Assembly: GCF_041381155.1 (NCBI RefSeq)
Contig: NC_091146.1
Location: forward strand, 2,621,224-2,685,223
Origin: Argopecten irradians
Lineage: Eukaryota; Mollusca; Bivalvia; Pectinida; Pectinidae
Direction: 5' to 3'
Length of the DNA stretch: 64,000 nucleotides
The translations under genes were made by a program, and so were the position numbers. Shown here piece after piece: positions 26,801-38,800 of this stretch. Under the pieces are notes generated by a model. That model was given only the letters and a program-made list of their open reading frames with translations, was not told where the DNA came from and did no database searches. Each line of letters begins with the position of its first letter. Position 1 is the first letter of the stretch.

Positions 26801-29800
26801 AGTAATTGGTGGTGGTACAAGAGTAATACGATGATTTAAAGTGTTACTTATCTGTATGCGAATGTCCTGGTATAATCCTTGATCCTTCCAGGTTTCAAAT
26901 TAACAATAATCAAAAATCCACGAGGAAAATGAATGTCCACAGATGATTTGTAAAGTTCCAGGCAATATGAATAAATCCACACAAAATGTTGTAATAATCC
27001 ACAGATAAAGTCACAATAGCTCTCCCAATAGAGTCTTATATGGCGCTGTACAATTCTTGATATGTCTTATTACAGGTCTCATTACAGTTCTCGTTACAGT
27101 TCTGATTAGCTTTGGACAGTTGGAGTATATATAGCTAAACCCTAATTCAAGAATATTGGAGAACCTTCTACTTCTAGAAATATCTAACTAAAAACAGTAA
27201 ACAAGTAAACACACATAACTTTCAGGAAATAGATCATTCTAGATCTCTACTTAAAATCAACATGTTTACAAACATATTTGTTTATACATGATTATATTCT
27301 AGAAAGTTCTATAACCTAAATCAATGATATGACCTTCATAGGATGTATTGATAAAAAAAACTATAGGAGTTATCTCCCTTATCTCATAACTACATGTATT
27401 TAGTATCATACATAACAGAATTGTATGGTATATGCAATATGAGGAATCTTATATGTTTACTATTACTGAATTTGACCTTTTATGGATCTATGGATTTGTA
27501 AGGATCATACAATTTAGCAGTGGCATTTGATAGATAACAATGGTATTTTTGCCTAACAATGTAATTTTTCCTTGTCAAAATGGAATTTTTGTTGCCTTAA
27601 TGCTTATATGGTTATTGTCTTGATTAAATTTTAAGTATTGTTCTTAAGAATAATTTGATTAAGAGTTATCTCCCATGATGCTCAGGTGCATGGTTTGCAC
27701 ATTGTTGTTTATTGTTTTTTTCTTCATAATACTCTTTTTCAGTGTAATATTTGACTTACAGAATCCAGTTCTTGTTTATCATGTTACTTATAACATAACC
27801 ATACTTCACATGGTACCTTACTTGTCAGAGAAAGGCAGTTTAACTTCAGCCATGTATGTCTTTATCACATCTACCCTGTTAGTTCATTGCACATTTGTCA
27901 CTATGACTTTGTCATTTCCTTAGTGATTATCAGACATGTTTATTGCTACAGGTTCCTACATAAGGTACCGAGGTATGTCAAATAGGTGATGCATTATGTT
28001 ATCAAGATGCCAAATTTATTCCATGCAGATGTTTTACATGTATTCCATGATTTTGGTGACTAAATTCTATGGTTCGCCCAAAATTGTCACAATTTTGTTT
28101 TTGCGGGCAGATGTACTGTATATGACTATAGAATTTATATGATTTAAGAGAAATCCGGAAAATGTTAATTTCTTATTTTGTATGGCTAGGTTCCGGAGAG
28201 TGCGGATCCGAGTTGGAGATTAGAAAGAACGAAGATGGCGAATAAAACACGGTGAACTGGAACCAGATGAATTTGTATCTCACCCGTTATCATTCCTCTC
28301 ACACGATAATAAGCCAAGCGACACGATACACTATGTACAAACCACACTCCTTTTACACTGACAACTGTTGATACACACAACATTTGTATTATCTCATCTA
28401 TATTTTCTGTTAAGGGCTTACGAGTTGTAGTGATGTCAGACCTGGCAGTCCCTCCGGTATTTACAATGTGACCTTGACCCCTGGCCGGAGTGACGATGTT
28501 TACTGTGATATGGACACAGACGGAGGACCATGGACAGTAAGAATAATTAAAATACAATAATGTAGTTTAATCTTCTCTCTCTCTCTATCTCTTTCGTTCT
28601 CTCTCTCTCTATATATATATATAATAAATTTGAAGACAAATCCTTAAGGACAAAATCTATAAGAAATAAAAACAATAACGACTGACTGGTGAGCGTTTTG
28701 AAGAAAAATCCTTACGAACGAAATCTATATATATAATCTTTCTAATAAGCTCACCACATTATTAGTCTGATAGCCTGTGAATTTGCCCGTATACTAATTC
28801 TGCATATATCACTAGTATAACAAAATGTAGTGGCCAGAACTGATTCGAACCCAGGACCTACGAGCTCTATTGACTGAGCTACCTGGTCACCGATGATCGA
28901 CCCAGTCAAATCCCGCTCAGCCTAGACATTCCATGGGTTCCGATCACTAATTATCTCTACACCCCTGGACTATATCATTGTTAAACTGAAGGCAACAGAA
29001 TAGAACAGGTAATTTAGTCATTTGATGTACATCAATAGAGCCGTATAACGGTACACTATGGTTGACTGTGTGGCTTTAATGTTAAGCGTTGATCTCTCTG
29101 TAGTCTTCAAAGGAATTGCTTTTGGCTTGTAATTGGTTAAGATTTGTTCCACTGAACTGCCTCCAGTTTTACTATGAGCTAGTCCAGGGGTGTAGAGATC
29201 GTAAGTGATCGGAACCCCTGGAATTTCGAGGATGGTGTTATATAACTGTAGTGAAAGTATCCGGGGGTCAATTTTACCGCGGTAGGTATTTGCCTCTAGT
29301 GAGTGAGGGGTGTTTGTATTGCCGGATGTAGCGCATGCGCAGAGTGTGAAGTGAGTGCGAAGCGGGCCAGATGACTGGAGCTAACTGTCAGCGGTAAACA
29401 AGTAAATATCACCCTTATCCTGATCTAGAACTCATCAAAGTGTAGGGAAACACTCCAATGGTGTCAGAAGTGACCACGAGGACTTTGACAGTTGTGTGAC
29501 ACTTAGCACCACGTGTGTTTAGGACTTTGACAGTTGTGTGACACTTAGCACCACGTGTGTTTTGATTTGGCGGGCAAGTGTCATTCTCGCACTGTGTTAG
29601 ACAACAATATAAATTCGAAGGAAATCCTAAGGATTGGACGTAAGGATATCCAAATCTCCTCACAATAGGTATGTGTATTGTTAGTTAAGTTTATTTCAGA
29701 ATTTGTATCGAATATTGTTGTCTTTTGGTTTTTCAATATTTGCCCCGATCGATTTGTTGTTATATTTGATATATAAACATGTCGTTTAAAATAAATCTGG

Positions 29801-32800
29801 CCAGTGAGTCGGAGTTGGCGAAGTGTTTACCGGGAATAGGTTCCAAACAATCACAGACATAAGTCGATTTGAGGGATCGTGTGGGACCTATTACCCCTAA
29901 AATATTAGCCTCATAAACTCAGTAGATTTTTCTCCCATGTCGGACATGGATGATTATGAACATGAGCGTCAGAGGGAAGGGTTTGAGGCTTCTGGCCCAC
30001 CTGACACAACTATTTCCAAAACAGATATGGTAGATGTGGTTGACCATTAAGTGACCTAGTCGCCAGTGATTATACAGCATACACATATTTAGCACATCAC
30101 GTGACAGAATACTGGATTCTGATTGGCTACACACATGGCTACTATTTGCAATAGTGCCCGGGCAAGCGGGCACTATTGAAGTGGCGCGAAATTGAACGTG
30201 AATGTATTGTGACGTCATTATAACGTTGCGCTTCGACCAAGACGTCAAGATGGCGGACAGGCTGTTGTGTGCGGGGATGGAAGCAAATTTTGCTGTTCTA
30301 CAGAAGACAGTTACATACTCATGTTCTATATTGATATACTTTTAATATTCATGAAGCTGAATCCCGTTTTTTAGAAACACAGATTTCCGCGACAATTCAT
30401 ATGTTGTACTTTTAACGTAATAATATGGTTTGGAAATGATTCTAGCATTGTGAGGTGTCACTGTGACGTGCTTCTGTTACGATGACATGAAAACAAGTCC
30501 CATCTGAGGGTGATGTACTTAACCCATTATGGCCTTTGGCTCGGGCACTATTCCATCCCTCGACAATACTATGAGGCAAAAGTGCCCTCTCAAACAGGCC
30601 ATAATAGATAAATATATAACGCACAAGGTATGTAACGCTAAAAGCACACATTTATTGAACAGTTCGCCGTAACAAATTCACATTCCAGGTAGTACACCGC
30701 AGGCTGCCAACAATGCTTGGCCAATACCGACATCAATATTCAAATATAACGAGCCTACCTGTGTTACTTCATTACTAGATGTTATCAACAGTTTGTGCCT
30801 TATAGGAACAAATAACCTGTGCACCAACTATTATGTCCCATAGTCAGGAAGCTTATCAAACTCCATCTTTACTCCTCTCAGCGTTGTTTTCCTTTTTCGC
30901 CATGCCGTCCATCCCATAATATTGCACACGTCACTACCTAGCGGCGCTACTAATCACCGCCGGGTACCGGGACGAAACTGGAATTTTACTAAATTACGAC
31001 AGGTGCCGGAACCGAACCGGCGTTCCACTAAATAACCGTTACTTATCGGTAACAGTAGAGTTTGCCTTTTCAGAACAAAAGGAGGAAGACATTTCGTCAG
31101 AACCTAGGGAACAAACTAGTTTAAAATCTCACCCTGGAGAATGGCCTGTAGTTCCATCTATAGTGAGCGAGTCAGAGAGGGGATGTCCTGTCCAAATTAA
31201 ACAGGAACAGGACAGTAAGGACACAAGGTCAAGGCCACGGATATCAACGTCGCGCGCCAGCAGTGTCCAAGATGAATCGGGAAATTCCTCGGGCTCATAT
31301 GTACGCGACTTGGAAAAGCGATTGGCGAAACTAGAGTTAGCAACCTCAAGACAATATTGTACTTCTCCGATGGATATTCCGAAGACTCCATCTCCGAAAT
31401 GGCTTGGAAAACAGCTGATTGATCACCATAGATATCAGCTTAGGTTTATCGAGCAACAGTACTCAGAGACTGAGCTCAAACCATTAAAGCGGGGTGCTAG
31501 TGAGACTTTTGGGCCTAGCTTTCAACACACTGTTAAAGGGCCATCTCAACAAACTGCTTATGAGCCTTCTGGGCCTAAAGCACGACATACGCTGGACAGG
31601 CAAGATGAAAAACAGTCAATTAGTCGTTCAAGTTCAAGGTCGAAACAGAGGACAAAGTCATTAGATGTGTCGTCATCTGTAAAGCAGTATACATCGAAAC
31701 GCGACTCCGTAAACCTGGTACGTCCTAAAGACCGGACAAGGAGGGATAAACATTTATCATCACGCGATAGATTTTCACCGTCACCTGGACGACAACAGAA
31801 GCATTCAGACCTGAGTCACAAATCTGGACGTCACAGAAGGCGAGACTCCTGTTCTTCGGAATCAGACAGGGAGTCAAGGGGTCGTCAGTACCAGGCTACG
31901 ACATATTATGACTCGTCAAGTTCTGAGGACATCGCTGTTGAGGACCGGAATAGAGAGAGACATGAGAGACATTCAAAAAAGGGGTCTCGAAGAAATCCGA
32001 AGTTATTGCCAAAGAATTTTTCTTTCAATTTTAAATCCAACTGGCTGTCATTCTGGAGAAAGTTTGAAAGCTACCGGTCTGTACTGAAGTTGACAAAGGA
32101 AAAAAGTCGGGATTACCTTTGCTGGTGTCTAGAGGGAAAGGCCTTGGATTTGTTCACCACTGTCTCACAGGAGGGTGAGTACTACTCCTTCAGTAAAATG
32201 ATGAGGATGCTAGAAGGCCGCTTCGGGGATATGGAATTAATGGAGACCTCGAAGGCGAAGTTTACTCAGGCACAGCAGCGCCAAGATGAATCCTTTGATG
32301 ATTGGGCCAACAGGGTTTTAACCTTGGCTACACCAGCCTTCAAATGACTTCTAGAGAAGTATAGTAAGGAGGAGGTTATCATCAAGTTCTGCCAAGGTTG
32401 CTGGGACAAGGAAGCTGGTAAGCATGTCTGCTTAAAAAAAACCCTCGTTCAATCAGACAGGCGCTGGATAGGGTAAAGCACTACCAGTATATTTCGCAGG
32501 CAGTGGACAGCAAAAAGAAAAAAAGAATGATAAAGATGATACCTTCGCTGTAAATGCTGTGGGATCCTCAGCTGAGAGTAAGGCCCTGGAGGAAATCCAG
32601 AAGACTCTAGCTGAGATGAAAAAGAGGTTGGACCAAGCGGAGGCGAAACCTACAAAGTCCACTAAAGACAAAGGAAAGGGCCGGAAGGATATAGAGTGTT
32701 TCTTCTGCAAAAGGAAGGAGCATTTTAAGAGGAAATGACGTAGCTGGAAGACATCTCAAAAGGAGGATGGCAATAAGAAGGATACTTTAAACGCCAAGAG

Positions 32801-35800
32801 CCCAGGCAAGTCGACCTTGACCCTAGGTGACCAACGAACAAAGGGTCGAAACATCTAGCTTCTCAGACGGAGACTTCTGGCATTCCTGAGTTAAGTAACG
32901 GCACAAACGTTGTTTTCACTGATCCCCTTACCAAGGAGAATGGGATGATGAATTCCATGGAAGGCACTGTCTCGCCTTCTGGCCATACTTTGACGACAAG
33001 GATATCCCCATGGAAGTCGATGAACAGCAGGATGAACTAGGAGTTTATAGGGTCTGTGCAGGGTCCTCATCCGTACATATTACTAAAGGGAATATGGAGA
33101 TCCAAGCACGCATGGATTCGGGAGCAGAGATAGCCATATTATATTCTTCCATATACAAGAAGTTAAAGAAGAAACTTTAGAAGGTCAAGCATATTCTAAT
33201 GTATATGGCTGACAAGGACTCAGCATTGGAAGGATTCCAGACCGAGCCAGTTCGGCTGAAGATTGGCAAGCATAAACAAGGAGTGAGTTTATGTGGCACC
33301 GATCGCTGGCGACATGTTACTTAGACATGATCTGTTACATCACAAGGGCGCGGTTCATGATATGAAAACGGACACTCTTGTAGTGGAGGATGAACGCGTT
33401 CAATTGAATACAAAGTTCAAGGAGGACAAACCAGTGGAGGCCCGAGTAACTTTAACACGAAATGTCGTTGTTCAACCATACTCCTTGGTTCGCGTGTCTG
33501 GTAAGGTAGATGCCGTATTGAAGGACCACTACACAGAACAAATGGACAATTTAGGCCTTGTGATGCCAAGGACCTTAAGAAAGGGGAACACAGCGCCAAT
33601 TATATGCCTCGTTAACTCAGGGGAGACATTTCAAACCTTGAAGATGGGAACGGTGGTGGACAATGCGTTCGAGTTCAACAGCGTTCTTAGTGAAGGTGAT
33701 ATTACGGATTCATGCACGACCCATGACGGAAGGGAGACTGGTGAGGCTTCAGGCCCTCCAGTCTACCTTAACACTTGTCAGGTCTGAAAGCAAATATTAC
33801 TGGGTATCCATATAGATGTTATGGGTCCACTACCTAAAACGTCTAGCGGGAATGAACATTGTTTAAATTATGGTGTATCAGTTCGCCAAGTGGGTGAGAT
33901 GTGGGTTTTTTTCCGTCCCAGAAGGCAGAGGTAACAGCAAAAGCGGCCGTTAACGAATTCTTTTCGTGATTTGGCCATCCGCTCCATCTTTTCTCCGATC
34001 AAGGACGGAATTTTGAAGGAAAGCTGTTCGAAGCTCTCTGCAAGACTCTACAGATACATAAGTCTCGGACAATGCCCTATCGACCCTCATCGAAAGGGCA
34101 GTTGGAAAAAATTAACAGGACATTGATGAACGCGGTTCGTTGCTTTCTTAGCAAATCGCAAAATACGTGGGACGAACATTTACAGCAGATAGCTGGAGCT
34201 ATCAGATCATCAGTGAATCGGTCGACTGGTTATACCACCAATATGTTAATGTTGGGGACAGAAGTAACTACGCCGGCACAGTTGATGTTTCCCAACCCAT
34301 CAGTGAAGTCTGAGACTACGGAGGACTATGTAATGAGTCTTCAGGAAAACATAAAAAAGCACATCAGGTTGCAAGAGAGAAGCTTAAAACAACCCTTAAA
34401 CAAAGGAAGAGGTATTATGACCTAAGGATATTGCAGAGGCAATACTCGGAAGGCGACCTTGTATATGTCCTGGACACAGCAGTGGTAAAGTAGAAATATA
34501 AGAATCTCCTTGGAAGGGTCCGGTTATTAATGTAAAGAAGCTTTCTGCATATTTGTATCGCGTTAAGCTTCGGGATTCAGTCTTTGTCACCAAGCATTAG
34601 CGGATGATGCCATGCCGGGACAGGAAAGTGCAAGCTTGGATCACGGTGTACAAGACTAGGTAAACAGATAATGAGGTTTTAGAGGACCACGATGACAAAA
34701 CAGAGTTTTGCGTCTGCCGAAAGCCATGCAATTGCCGGTTTATGATACAATGTGACTATTGTGATGAGTGGTACCATGGTTCCTGCGTAAACATTTCTGC
34801 CCCCGACGTATTGGACATTGATAAGTATAAGTGTGCTGGATGTAGTAGGACTACTAACCATTAAAACTTAGGGACTTTTACTGTCCTTTGTAGATATGGA
34901 AAGAAAACAAAGATTCCTAAGACGGGTGGAGGATCTGGCAGACAGAAAGTGCCTGTATGAACATGCAAAGGAGTTCATCACCCAGGCAGGGATTCATCTG
35001 GCGTCGCCAGAGATTAAGGCAGTGGTGTGCTCCTGGGTCTGGCATGGATCCAGAAGGAGGTTCACTATATCGCGATGTCTCGGTGAAGTGGACAACCTCA
35101 CCCAGAACCAACATTTCGGGGTGGGATGGTGAGAGACGTTCGGTTGGCATCCGACGCCACACTGGAATAGAGAATGGAGGATGTTGGCACTGCGGCTTCT
35201 TGCCCAGTCAAATCAGAAGATCTGGTTCTCCTCAGTGACTCGAACTGGATGTACACACCCCGGATTCTTCCATCTTTGAGTCTCCGAAGAAAGCAGCGAT
35301 CAGCCTAATTCCAGTGAAAGTTGCAGAGACGCCTTCGTCAAACCGGCCTGGGGAAGGAGAGGTCTGGGCTTCTAGTCCAGTCTCTCGGAAGCACGACAGG
35401 GAGCCCTCCAGGACGAAGAGTAGATCAAGTTCCTCTGGACATGGATCAACATCCAGGGGGACAGTGGCTTGTTGTCTGACCAGAAGAGAGGGCAGAAGGA
35501 AAGCTGGGTCAGCCTCTCATCAGACGAGTGAGAGACGAGTGAGGTATTCGTCAAGGAGATGCCAGGAAGTTACACGGGCTTCTGACCGTGACCCTTGTCA
35601 GTCTCGTTCGACCCTGGAACCATCACGGAAACGCGACAGATCGAGACTTGAGGAACATACACATGCTAGGAAACCAGGAGGTGGAGAGACTTTGCTGGGT
35701 ACCAGGCTGCAAGGCACCCAATGTCTATGTCTAGGTACATGCCTTCAAATACCACATTTCTGGTATATTTGATTAAAATCTGCCACCTGAGGACAAGGAG

Positions 35801-38800
35801 GTCTTGGGACTGCGGAAGACGGCCTTGATGTATTTGGCACGTGGCTTATGGCCCGGCAAGGGACTTGGGAGGATCTTGTGACATATCTTTGCATCTGGAG
35901 CCTATGAACTCGCCGGCAGTGTTGCTACACTGGAGGGCCATTTTACTGATGTATGCCCGTCTGGAGGATGAATATCTGGAGTACTGGAAGAAGTCTTATT
36001 CCTCCTGGGATGCTGAAGGAGATGGAACTTCCAGTGACTTTCGATGCTCACTTTCACTTGGATCGTATCATCAAGAGAATGGGGTTACCTTCCACAGTCA
36101 CGTTCAGTAGCGTTTTGGATGGTTCGGCGGAGAGCACTGGGAAGGAGGTGAGGCTGGTCGGGACATGTGCATCATTTTGTGACCCGGATGCCTATCCTTC
36201 TGGGCGGAGTCTTCTTGACATCCCAGATGATATGGTTGTGGCTGTAGGACTTCATCCTAGGCATCATCCACGGGATCAGAGAGAGGAAGATGAGTGGGTT
36301 AGACAGCTCAAGGAACTCTCCTGGTTATCGAGGGTGAAACCTTTGGGTGAAGTTGGATTGGATCACTCGGAGCCACGAGGACGATGGCCGGGCCAAATGG
36401 ACTGCTTGGAGAGAGCACTGAGGCTGGTGCGAAAACGTCATGCCTTGGTACTCCATTGTAGAGGGACGTCCGGCGACAATGGGACGGAGGCATATATGTT
36501 ATTATTGCATATATAATAAGGAGTGAGGTATCTGCTGATCAGAGGGTGTATTTACATTGCTTCTCTGGAAATGAGTACGTCCTCAGCATGTGGTTAGTAG
36601 CGCGCACCAACCTTTACCTCGGGTTTACTCGAATGGTAAAGTCATTCTCCGGTCCACAGACTCGTGCCCTGAAGGCTGTCGCGAATGACAAAATTGTCTT
36701 TGAGACAGATAAGCCATATTTCGTGGGGTCAGGTCAGGGATGGTCGGCCCCAAACCAGCTGTACTCCGTGGCGGTGATCATCGCTCCAATACGACACGTC
36801 AGGGTGGATAAATTGCTGGAAACGTCTACTGAGAACGCCAGAAGGTTGTTCCAGTGAAACACTCGCGTGATGGGGACCCTCAGGCCAGATCCAGGTCTGA
36901 GATGAATTGGATGAGCTAGAGCGGGAGGCTTCTTGCCCAAGTATAGCTCTGAGGGATGTGTCTCGGTGGCTTCTGGCTATGGAGAAGACAAAACAAAAGG
37001 TAAGAGTTATCCAGTTTCTTTGCTAAGCATTACAGTGGCTTCTGGCCCAGATTGCATGCAAAGCCCAGACATCCGATGTACCTGCAGGTGAAGTATTGAT
37101 CCGGGACTGCATCCTTCATCATAAAGGTGGGAGGAGTGTAGTGAAAGTATCCGGGGGTCAATGTTACCGGGGTAAATATTTGCCTCTAGTGAGTGAGGGG
37201 TGTTTGTATTGCCGGATGTAGCGCATGCGCAGAGTGTGAAGCGAGTGCGAAGCGGGCACGATGACTGTCAGCGGTAAACAAGTATATATCACCATTATCC
37301 TGACCTAGAACTCATCAGAATGTAGGGAAACACTTCATTACCCTGAATATTTGTCATTGACTAAAATTCCATATGACGCCATGTTTTTACTTTACTGAAC
37401 AATGAACTGCTGTACTATCTTTTCCATCTTATAAATATCGCTGACTTATTTTTGTTTATTTAACTAACAGCTGATACAGAACAGACAGGACGGTACTGTA
37501 GACTTTTACCGGAACTGGACGGAATATCAGACAGGATTTGGTGACATAGACGGGGAATTCTGGGCCGGTAAGTACAGTGTATATATGAGGTATTATACAA
37601 GTCTATTATTCTTCCTGACTGATGTCTTATGTTTCGGTACAAAAACCAAGTTATGATAACAATAACAAATGTATGTGCTTAGACAAAAATAACAAAATTT
37701 ATACTATCTAGAATAACGTACCATGGGTTATATTTCATTTTTGTTTTTTTACAGTTATATTGTTTGTCGGCATCAGCAACATGTGATACAAAGACATATA
37801 TTAAATCAATGTCTGACGATTTAATAAATATTTTGTTAGGTCTGAACATAATACACCTCCTAACCCAGAACGGCTCCAAACTTCGTATCAATTTGATGTC
37901 CTGGAAGAACGATACACAGTACGCCGAGTACCAGGACTTCCGTGTGGGGGACGAGTCATCGAAGTACCGACTGTCGGTATCGGGATTCTCCGGGAATGCC
38001 ACCTGTAAGTTTTTTGTTTGTTTGTTAAGAGTTTTATCTCTTTAAAAAGCATTTAGAAAGCATCATTACCAAATCATTTTATGAATAGGAAAATTATAAA
38101 AGTTCCCACATTGTACGTTTGTATACCAGGAAAGCGTTGAAACCCTAAACATACAATTCAAATTAAAATGTAAATAGCATACATACGATATATTTTGCAA
38201 TTTGGGTCTACTAACATAGGAGTTACACAATATTGACAAACAGTTATAGAATCATCACCGAATGAGATGAGAAATCAGAAACTCATAATGTCGACTATCG
38301 ATTAGATTTGTGTGTGTTATTGTTTACTGCAACTTAGCCTTGTCCATCAGTCTTTATAAACATATAAATTGAATACCGACTTGAGTTAAAACACATTGAT
38401 TCACATATGAGTGTATGAATCTAGTAGTTAAGTATAATTAAGATTTAAGTCAGCTTCAGTTGGTCCCCGAACTAGTATGACAGTACAATATAACCGCGAT
38501 GTTCGGTGTAATCAATCCTGTATAACCTGTCTGTGTTTTGACAGATGATGGTATGGATTACCATGACGGTGACCAGTTCTCTACCTACGACAATGACAAT
38601 GATGTGGATGAAGGTAATTGTGCTGTAAGTCGTAACGGCGCCTGGTGGTACAAAGCCTGTAGTCATAGTAACCTGAACGGGCCGTACGTACAGGATACTG
38701 GGGATGATCGTCTATCGTTGTGGTGGTGGGAATTCTACTCTGGCCAGGGTCGCGTACCTTTGATGAGGTCCAGAATGATGGTGAAACATCCCGGTGTTTA

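Follow-up and report, generated by a model that had tools for sequence, protein, structure and literature searches.

A TatD-family nuclease domain in the third gene of Ty3-like retrotransposons, probably a conserved feature of one clade, in the scallop Argopecten irradians, with relatives in other marine invertebrates

This work reports that a decayed retrotransposon in the genome of the scallop Argopecten irradians very probably belongs to a Ty3-like clade with a conserved third gene, here called ORF3 (open reading frame 3), whose product ends in a TatD-family nuclease domain. The window analysed is a whole stretch of 64,000 nucleotides on contig NC_091146.1 (assembly GCF_041381155.1, positions 2,621,224 to 2,685,223 of the forward strand; C13:2621224-2685223 in our numbering), and the element, Ty3-like and bounded by long terminal repeats (LTRs), occupies its positions 29247-37337 (Table 1). 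Other loci of the genome are given as L numbers and proteins as P numbers.

A first-pass annotation of the window had reported a TatD nuclease at 35953..36857, in two frames on the sense strand, as a third gene of an LTR retrotransposon. The motifs HFH, GLHP, GEVGLD, LHCRG, LHCFSG and ETDKPYF indeed follow one another in that order in the translations, and the two frames cover positions 1-134 and 151-253 of the 253 positions of the Pfam TatD_DNase profile (PF01026). That interval holds the TatD domain, but only this domain of a gene that runs from about 34896 to 36857, and tblastn matches to the N-terminal region of ORF3 are found at 34821-35272 of the window. All six metal-ligand columns are occupied as the annotation stated (H, H, E and H in the first frame, H and D in the second); their survival in a broken copy is nevertheless weak evidence of selection, because in a protein that is about 85-90% identical to its kin six residues would, by our estimate, often survive by chance, and the real evidence of selection lies in other copies.

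The same arrangement recurs across the genome (846 Mb, 1508 contigs), in which the PF01026 profile gave 58 matches that merge into 46 clusters. With an integrase-PHD query taken from this type of element, for which 150 of 1309 candidate matches were scored, so that the integrase counts are lower bounds, an integrase was placed upstream on the same strand for 27 of the 46 clusters (26 at 1.2-2.2 kb, one adjoining), against a chance expectation of about 0.02 such adjacencies, and none of the 150 integrase rows was found within 6 kb 3′ of any TatD. The 3′ LTR of the window copy has 13 matches in the genome and lies within 0.6 kb downstream of seven TatD clusters, and the union of both signals places an integrase or this LTR beside 30 of the 46. 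The other 16 comprise the host TATDN2 gene, nine clusters with at least a weak match to the TatD end of the ORF3 protein P0006, and six remaining ones. Paired LTRs surround TatD in four of the six elements read on both sides (L031, 96.3%; L033, 92.9%; L034, 97.8%; L035, 98.3%); no LTR pair was seen in the stretch read for L032, and L036 had scattered repeats only. An exact 4-bp target-site duplication flanks L033 and L034, and three of four bases agree at L035; none was seen at L031, the 5′ LTR of which fails to align at its start. As bounded by alignment, the LTRs of L033, L034 and L035 start with TG and end with TA.

These copies fall into five lineages, namely A (the window copy, L033 and L008), B (L035, L032 and L002-L005), C (L010, L011, L022, L024, L031 and L034), D (L001 and L006) and E (L014 with L069). 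In L035, Pfam domains follow in the order HHH, CCHC, reverse transcriptase (RT), RNase H, integrase zinc domain, integrase core and PHD, that is, the gag-protease-RT-RNase H-integrase order of Ty3/gypsy elements; the integrase-core match is below the cut-off in L035 and clear in L034. Located 3′ of the PHD finger in L035 is a frame of 744 residues with TatD at residues 541-744. L069 has a pol frame of 1487 residues, without a PHD finger by reading of the frame, and a purine-rich tract resembling an internal polypurine tract is seen between its pol and ORF3. TatD between integrase and 3′ LTR is therefore, as the annotation had proposed for one copy, the arrangement of many copies and several families.

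Relatives of this TatD were obtained by a protein search with the TatD end of the L035 ORF3, which returned 198 proteins, the best 120 being considered. The matches listed include Pecten, Saccostrea, Pinctada, Crassostrea, Mytilus, Dreissena, Mya and Tegillarca, together with Haliotis, Lingula, Ptychodera, Acanthaster, Diadema, Strongylocentrotus and Lytechinus; the ORF3-type relatives span bivalves, gastropods, a brachiopod, echinoderms and a hemichordate, and weaker matches from Liolophura and Darwinula fall in the TATDN2 group of the tree. Among the same best 120 of 198, the starfish (Acanthaster) protein P0068 carries integrase zinc-binding, integrase and PHD domains together with TatD in one predicted protein, and P0069 of Mytilus edulis carries retropepsin and TatD. 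A second search, seeded with a chiton TATDN2 (181 proteins, best 120 considered), gave mostly animal TATDN2 among the matches listed.

The host TATDN2 of the scallop was found as one gene at C12:40171248-40175054, with five exon-like matches at 42-69% identity to oyster TATDN2, and the other scallop matches to the oyster protein are of the ORF3 type, at 27-43%. In a tree of 78 TatD domains the ORF3-type rows form a group of 48 with support of 94/96, the full split from TATDN2 receiving 63/71 with the placement of P0125 unsure, and in a tree of 56 rows, without P0125 and 21 others, 33 ORF3-type rows separate from 23 others at 98/95; the rows of these trees were chosen by hand from 228 long-enough domains and constitute a sample. 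By this phylogenetic evidence the TatD domains of the elements are a deep group of their own, outside the animal TATDN2 orthologue group. Pecten proteins join the scallop lineages B and D in the trees, and oyster proteins join B as well, so that these lineages are older than the species.

That a host TATDN2 was inserted by chance, or transduced, into a single element copy would fit the broken frames of the window copy taken by itself, yet it is extremely improbable in view of the many copies in five lineages, the LTR-bracketed elements of different lineages that carry TatD in the same slot, the deep separation of the element TatDs, and the separate host gene with its five exon-like matches. 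The annotation had named single-copy host loci in relatives as the outcome that would speak for such an insertion; the search instead gave TatD in many copies and in five element lineages, with LTR-bracketed elements of different lineages among them. Its description as a captured nuclease is right in that the element carries the gene, but not as a recent capture of host TATDN2, because the ORF3 TatD domains form their own deep group. Its suspicion that mollusc TATDN2-like models are element copies is supported for P0003 (Argopecten) and P0007 (Pecten), both named TATDN2, and for P0004 (Babylonia), named 'TATDN2-like', which match the ORF3 type, but does not extend to the true TATDN2 of scallop, a separate gene with five exon-like matches. 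The sea-urchin models P0109 and P0112, named TATDN2, also fall in the ORF3-type clade of the tree. As a side observation, ORF3-type TatD proteins are filed under metagenome-assembled genomes (MAGs) of the bivalve symbionts Thiodiazotropha and Sedimenticola (P0047, P0075, P0081, P0089, P0091 and P0117), entries that are likely contamination from host retroelements. TATDN2-type proteins with CCHC zinc knuckles were also encountered (P0190, P0200, P0205, P0206 and P0210), and P0205 and P0210 are placed in the cellular TATDN2 group, away from the elements.

The ratio of nonsynonymous to synonymous divergence (dN/dS), which the annotation had suggested computing across intact copies, lies far below 1 in the pairs that are better diverged. 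For TatD it was estimated pairwise by NG86 from 36 fragments, over the first 90 pairs, with the window copy as L026 and with L028, a second view of the window, dropped. In subfamily C, 13 of the 16 listed pairs with a value give 0.10-0.22 at a synonymous divergence (dS) of 0.27-0.65, and the remaining three, with dS of 0.03-0.04, give 0.66-0.78; the five long copies of subfamily B give 0.12-0.30 in nine pairs, one more pair being identical, and the shorter B pieces 0.14-0.82. The window pieces compared with L012, L020 and L023 yield 0.33-0.49, with 0.92 for one piece of 80 codons, L020 against L023 yields 1.01, and dS is saturated among the more distant copies of lineage A. For the integrase-PHD part, eight of the ten subfamily C pairs lie at 0.04-0.24, one reaches 0.36 and a near-identical pair has a ratio of zero; of the lineage A pairs, one has 0.53, another 0.04 with dS saturated, and a third has no value. 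The ratios show purifying selection on TatD in lineages B and C, blurred by decay elsewhere; where both were measured, selection on TatD is somewhat weaker than on the integrase. Selection thus appears to have retained the TatD gene in these elements. An ORF3 that is a passenger of little use to its element is very improbable, given the low dN/dS of the better-diverged pairs and the presence of the gene in several old lineages, even with three integrase-PHD sister elements that lack it.

The metal ligands bear on whether the retained domain is an enzyme. Across the 127 rows, which come from 125 proteins and include a few outside the ORF3 type, the readable rows keep the six ligands in 120/120 (H), 118/120 (H), 121/123 (E), 119/124 (H), 121/125 (H) and 119/122 (D) cases, about 96% or higher at every site, and the scallop and window rows in 25/27, 25/27, 29/29, 27/29, 26/29 and 26/28, in the same order. 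Ligands are changed in some rows, for example the fourth His, which is Q in L013 and three Lytechinus proteins, as would suit a non-enzymatic module that only binds nucleic acid; against the retention of each ligand in about 96% or more of the readable protein rows, such a role is improbable.

The start of ORF3 carries signals of a further kind. A pyrimidine tract with YAG lies 2-11 bases 5′ of the ORF3 ATG in the window copy, L033, L035, L032, L034, L031 and L069, where the site ranks 2/589, 1/377, 3/680, 3/707, 18/598, 14/591 and 1/365, respectively, among all AG sites of the stretch concerned, and in lineage D a site five bases 5′ of an ATG scores 9.1 in both L001 and L006. A candidate splice acceptor before ORF3, new here, is accordingly present in all five lineages A-E; in the decayed L067 such a site is present with no ATG close after it. 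The three ORF3-less sisters score at most 1.5 in the corresponding place. As to donors, the best of L033 is CAG|GTAAGT in the leader, at about the position of TAG|GTATGT in the window, L035 has CAG|GTAAGT inside gag, and lineage C showed no strong donor in the leader. The occurrence of the acceptor-like site together with ORF3, and its absence from the sisters without ORF3, suggests splicing in the manner of env, as the env of errantiviruses is made from spliced RNA.

ORF3 has the position of an env gene and would probably share its mode of splicing, so that an env-like protein for cell-to-cell spread has to be considered, yet this is highly improbable. By simple hydropathy, no membrane anchor or signal peptide was recognised in ORF3: in 73 of the 89 ORF3-type proteins no stretch of 19 residues reaches the cut-off of 1.6, no strongly hydrophobic start was present in the eight checked, and the peaks listed for the eight top scorers fall, by reading, in the middle or TatD domains. 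The AlphaFold model of P0006, made with 58 sequences (mean pLDDT 80, pTM 0.51), likewise predicts soluble domains, with confident ones at about residues 30-120 (helical), 250-390 (helical, with a C2H2-like part) and 456-736 (a barrel). Of the 17 best PDB matches of the model, 14 are named as TatD-family proteins, human TATDN1 and TATDN3 among them; an uncharacterized amidohydrolase of yeast accounts for two more, as separate chains, and a metalloprotein of Deinococcus for the last; the first 50 matches of the whole model are to TatD and to other, mostly metal-dependent hydrolase or barrel, folds. The C-terminal domain of P0006 is thus predicted to have the TatD barrel fold.

In an alignment of 58 chosen ORF3-type proteins, C255, C260, H270, H275, W364 and R365 are at least 90% conserved. 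Strict patterns recover the C2H2-like part in 50 of 125 proteins, the NSPAV part in 47 and both in 25. Pfam assigns TatD to the four ORF3 proteins scanned, with an additional amidohydrolase match below the cut-off in L011, and found no DEDDy exonuclease domain in them; the N-terminal and middle pieces of ORF3 have no Pfam match even at an E value of 10, and no relative of the first TatD piece was found among viral contigs.

Several observations weigh against ORF3 as a conserved and spliced gene of the whole clade. Of 29 integrase rows that reach the PHD finger, 20 have TatD within 6 kb and nine do not. The 3′ side was read for six of these nine: by reading of the frames, L063, L066 and L067 have a truncated or decayed ORF3, and in L064, L065 and L068 the PHD stop is followed by a purine tract and then a TG start, ORF3 being absent; tblastn with P0006, P0095 and P0001 matched none of the six. 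In a tree of integrases, built from scallop copies and a single starfish protein, a group of 18 rows (lineages A-E, P0068, the ORF3-less sisters and L081, a further row without TatD) splits from four other integrases at 99/95, and the ORF3-less L078-L080 lie inside the PHD clade (96/95); the order inside it is not resolved, and therefore loss and late gain of ORF3 both fit. ORF3 can thus be lost, or was absent at first, in some elements. Lineage E sits on a long branch, and beyond this species P0068 and P0069 alone show the context of an element; both could be joins made by gene models. Little-diverged pairs and decayed copies give dN/dS of 0.3-1.0, and the subfamily C pairs are not independent, because L010 and L011 are identical; without L011, nine of 11 pairs remain in the low range. 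The splice-site weights are approximate, the acceptor sites of lineage C rank only 14-18, and of the five stretches scored for donors four have their top-scoring site somewhere other than the leader.

The remaining parts of the window element are listed in Table 1. Its LTRs agree in 188 of 211 aligned columns and its flanks in three of the four bases of a target-site duplication, and the primer-binding-site-like motif is found also 3′ of the 5′ LTR of L033. The copy lacks RT and RNase H, two RT queries having given no match between 33616 and 33806. From 35748 to 38627, the 3′ end of the element together with the flank past the LTR has a copy of 93.4% identity 40 kb downstream (L089, C13:2696900-2699900), a local duplication, because of which the divergence of the LTR pair is a doubtful clock. 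Just 5′ of the 5′ LTR is an inverted repeat at 28918-29234, with two arms of 90 bases that are 80% complementary. Homology to gag breaks off for about 1 kb at 29910-30920, perhaps through an insertion into this copy. The gag N-terminus is of the helix-hairpin-helix type (Pfam HHH_3) in L035:1414-1977, and in L031:2136-3140 just under the cut-off, a start that is, to our knowledge, unusual for gag. Elsewhere, fragments of the ORF3 N-terminus repeat every 5.5-5.6 kb or so at five places in C11:42198008-42220574, as if caught in a tandem array.

Table 1. Parts of the decayed retrotransposon in the window (window positions).
Feature	Position	Strand	Basis and remarks
5′ LTR	29247..29457	+	TG...CA ends; 89% identity to 37137-37337
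Putative primer-binding site, TGGTGTCAGAAGTG	29459..29472	+	directly 3′ of the 5′ LTR
Candidate 5′ splice donor in leader, TAG|GTATGT	29666..29674	+	sixth-best donor score in the window copy
gag N-terminus remnant (helix-hairpin-helix type)	29701..29910	+	46% identity to L033 gag
gag open frame with PNMA-like capsid region	30920..32347	+	PF14893, E 1.6e-6 over 31163-32344
Protease region, broken frames	33087..33616	+	DSGAE near start; L035 protease-side match at 33278-33616
Integrase, broken frames	33806..34484	+	matches L069 pol and L033 integrase
PHD finger, C-terminal end of integrase	34664..34861	+	frame and match to kin; Pfam PHD E 1e-10 in the corresponding L035 frame
3′ splice-acceptor-like site, TTTTACTGTCCTTTGTAG	34876..34893	+	2 bases 5′ of ORF3 ATG; second-best of 589 AG sites in element
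ORF3 (third gene), several broken frames	34896..36857 (start approximate)	+	tblastn with L033 and L008 ORF3
C2H2-like (C..C..H..H) stretch of ORF3	35677..35839	+	Cys/His columns at least 90% conserved in ORF3 protein alignment
NSPAVLxxWR region of ORF3	35865..36041	+	W and R at least 90% conserved in ORF3 protein alignment
TatD domain, part 1 (HxH, GLHP, GEVGLD, LHCRG)	35953..36513	+	PF01026, E 1.6e-12
TatD domain, part 2 (LHCFSG, ETDKPYF)	36546..36857	+	PF01026, E 4.6e-12 (frame 36546-36854)
Polypurine tract 5′ of 3′ LTR	37123..37136	+	GGAGGAG likewise precedes the 3′ LTR in L033 and L035
3′ LTR	37137..37337	+	89% identity to 5′ LTR; TG...CA ends

We propose that ORF3 in this clade sits where retroviruses carry env, 3′ of the stop of the integrase(-PHD) frame and 5′ of the polypurine tract, and that it encodes a helical N-terminal domain, a middle domain with a C2H2-like and a helical part, and a C-terminal TatD with all ligands. 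Because an acceptor-like site precedes its ATG, ORF3 would be made, like env, from a spliced subgenomic RNA; its middle domain may bind nucleic acid or chromatin, and TatD may trim RNA or single-stranded 3′ ends. A nuclease acting on RNA or on 3′ ends in hybrids is predicted because of the known activities of the TatD family and the anatomy of ORF3. Its target may be the RNA:DNA intermediates of the element's own replication and integration, a tentative reading to which we give nearly an even chance. That ORF3 serves counter-defence, by removing silencing host small RNAs, nuclear RNA or R-loops, is rather unlikely: human TATDN2 is described, in the portion of the report available to us, as resolving R-loops and as cutting RNA both as a 3′ exonuclease and as an endonuclease (PMC12709183), but TatD enzymes act on DNA too. 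E. coli TatD, TATDN1 and TATDN3 are likewise stated, in sources seen in excerpt, to cut apurinic/apyrimidinic sites. A role other than on the element's own intermediates or in counter-defence is somewhat unlikely.

The closest precedent is provided by the DEDDy-exonuclease ORF3s of bdelloid rotifers, as far as that study is represented in the excerpts available (PMC5408684). There, the LTR retrotransposons Juno and Vesta carry as ORF3 a DEDDy exonuclease or a GDSL gene, so that in both systems an enzyme of cellular type, of which one bdelloid kind is a 3′-5′ nuclease, takes the place of the third gene (PMC5408684). The bdelloid ORF3s are described as expressed from spliced messages, and the DEDDy frames as nearer to other element copies than to cellular homologues, with early branches lacking them (PMC5408684). 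They differ in fold and catalytic family from the TatD metal barrel reported here; moreover, the DEDDy ORF3 is described from bdelloids, the excerpts mention a Cys-His-Cys motif in two frames but no PHD, C2H2 or NSPAVLxxWR part, and no significant departure from neutrality was found within the genome (PMC5408684). Animal TATDN2 resembles ORF3 in having a C-terminal TatD with the same metal ligands after a long N-terminal part, but it forms a separate group, its domain starts with DSHCHLD or DTHCHLD (P0121 and P0124) in place of DSHFHLDR, and in scallop its gene lies in five exon-like pieces. Errantiviruses and other env-carrying Ty3 elements also have a third gene 3′ of pol, whereas ORF3 appears from hydropathy and the model to be a soluble protein of nuclease type and not a membrane protein. 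The acquisition of env by Ty3 elements is mentioned in the consulted part of one report, which also has chromoviruses end pol with a chromodomain (PMC12440569); the elements reported here likewise have a domain of chromatin-reader type at the C-terminus of pol, but a PHD finger replaces the chromodomain and ORF3 is added. No report of TatD in a retrotransposon was found in the literature searched, which lay outside subscription papers and Repbase. In the passages seen, PMC5408686 and PMC8062694 name only human TATDN2 pseudogenes and PMC7545183 only the wheat gene TaTDP1, and words starting with nuclease, PHD or DNase are absent from the main texts, as available, of the mollusc LTR surveys PMC8905726 and PMC6238403.

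In conclusion, we tentatively consider, at a little under an even chance for the whole, that this element lineage may predate the main bivalve split and possibly the protostome-deuterostome split, that it may keep a spliced C2H2-TatD nuclease instead of env, which would act on RNA:DNA hybrids, either the element's own or those in the nucleus of the host, and that a large share of the TATDN2-like models of marine invertebrates may be mobile copies. With this finding, the accessory genes of LTR retrotransposons come to include a nuclease from a universal family that serves repair and RNA processing; its relatives in molluscs, a brachiopod, echinoderms and a hemichordate give it a spread wider than that of the bdelloid precedent. 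The finding also offers a direct way of asking why a retroelement with an RNase H of its own keeps a second nuclease. TATDN2-like models of marine invertebrates, and some 'TatD' proteins of symbiont MAGs, may be retroelement genes, and such models could mislead studies of gene families and of associations.

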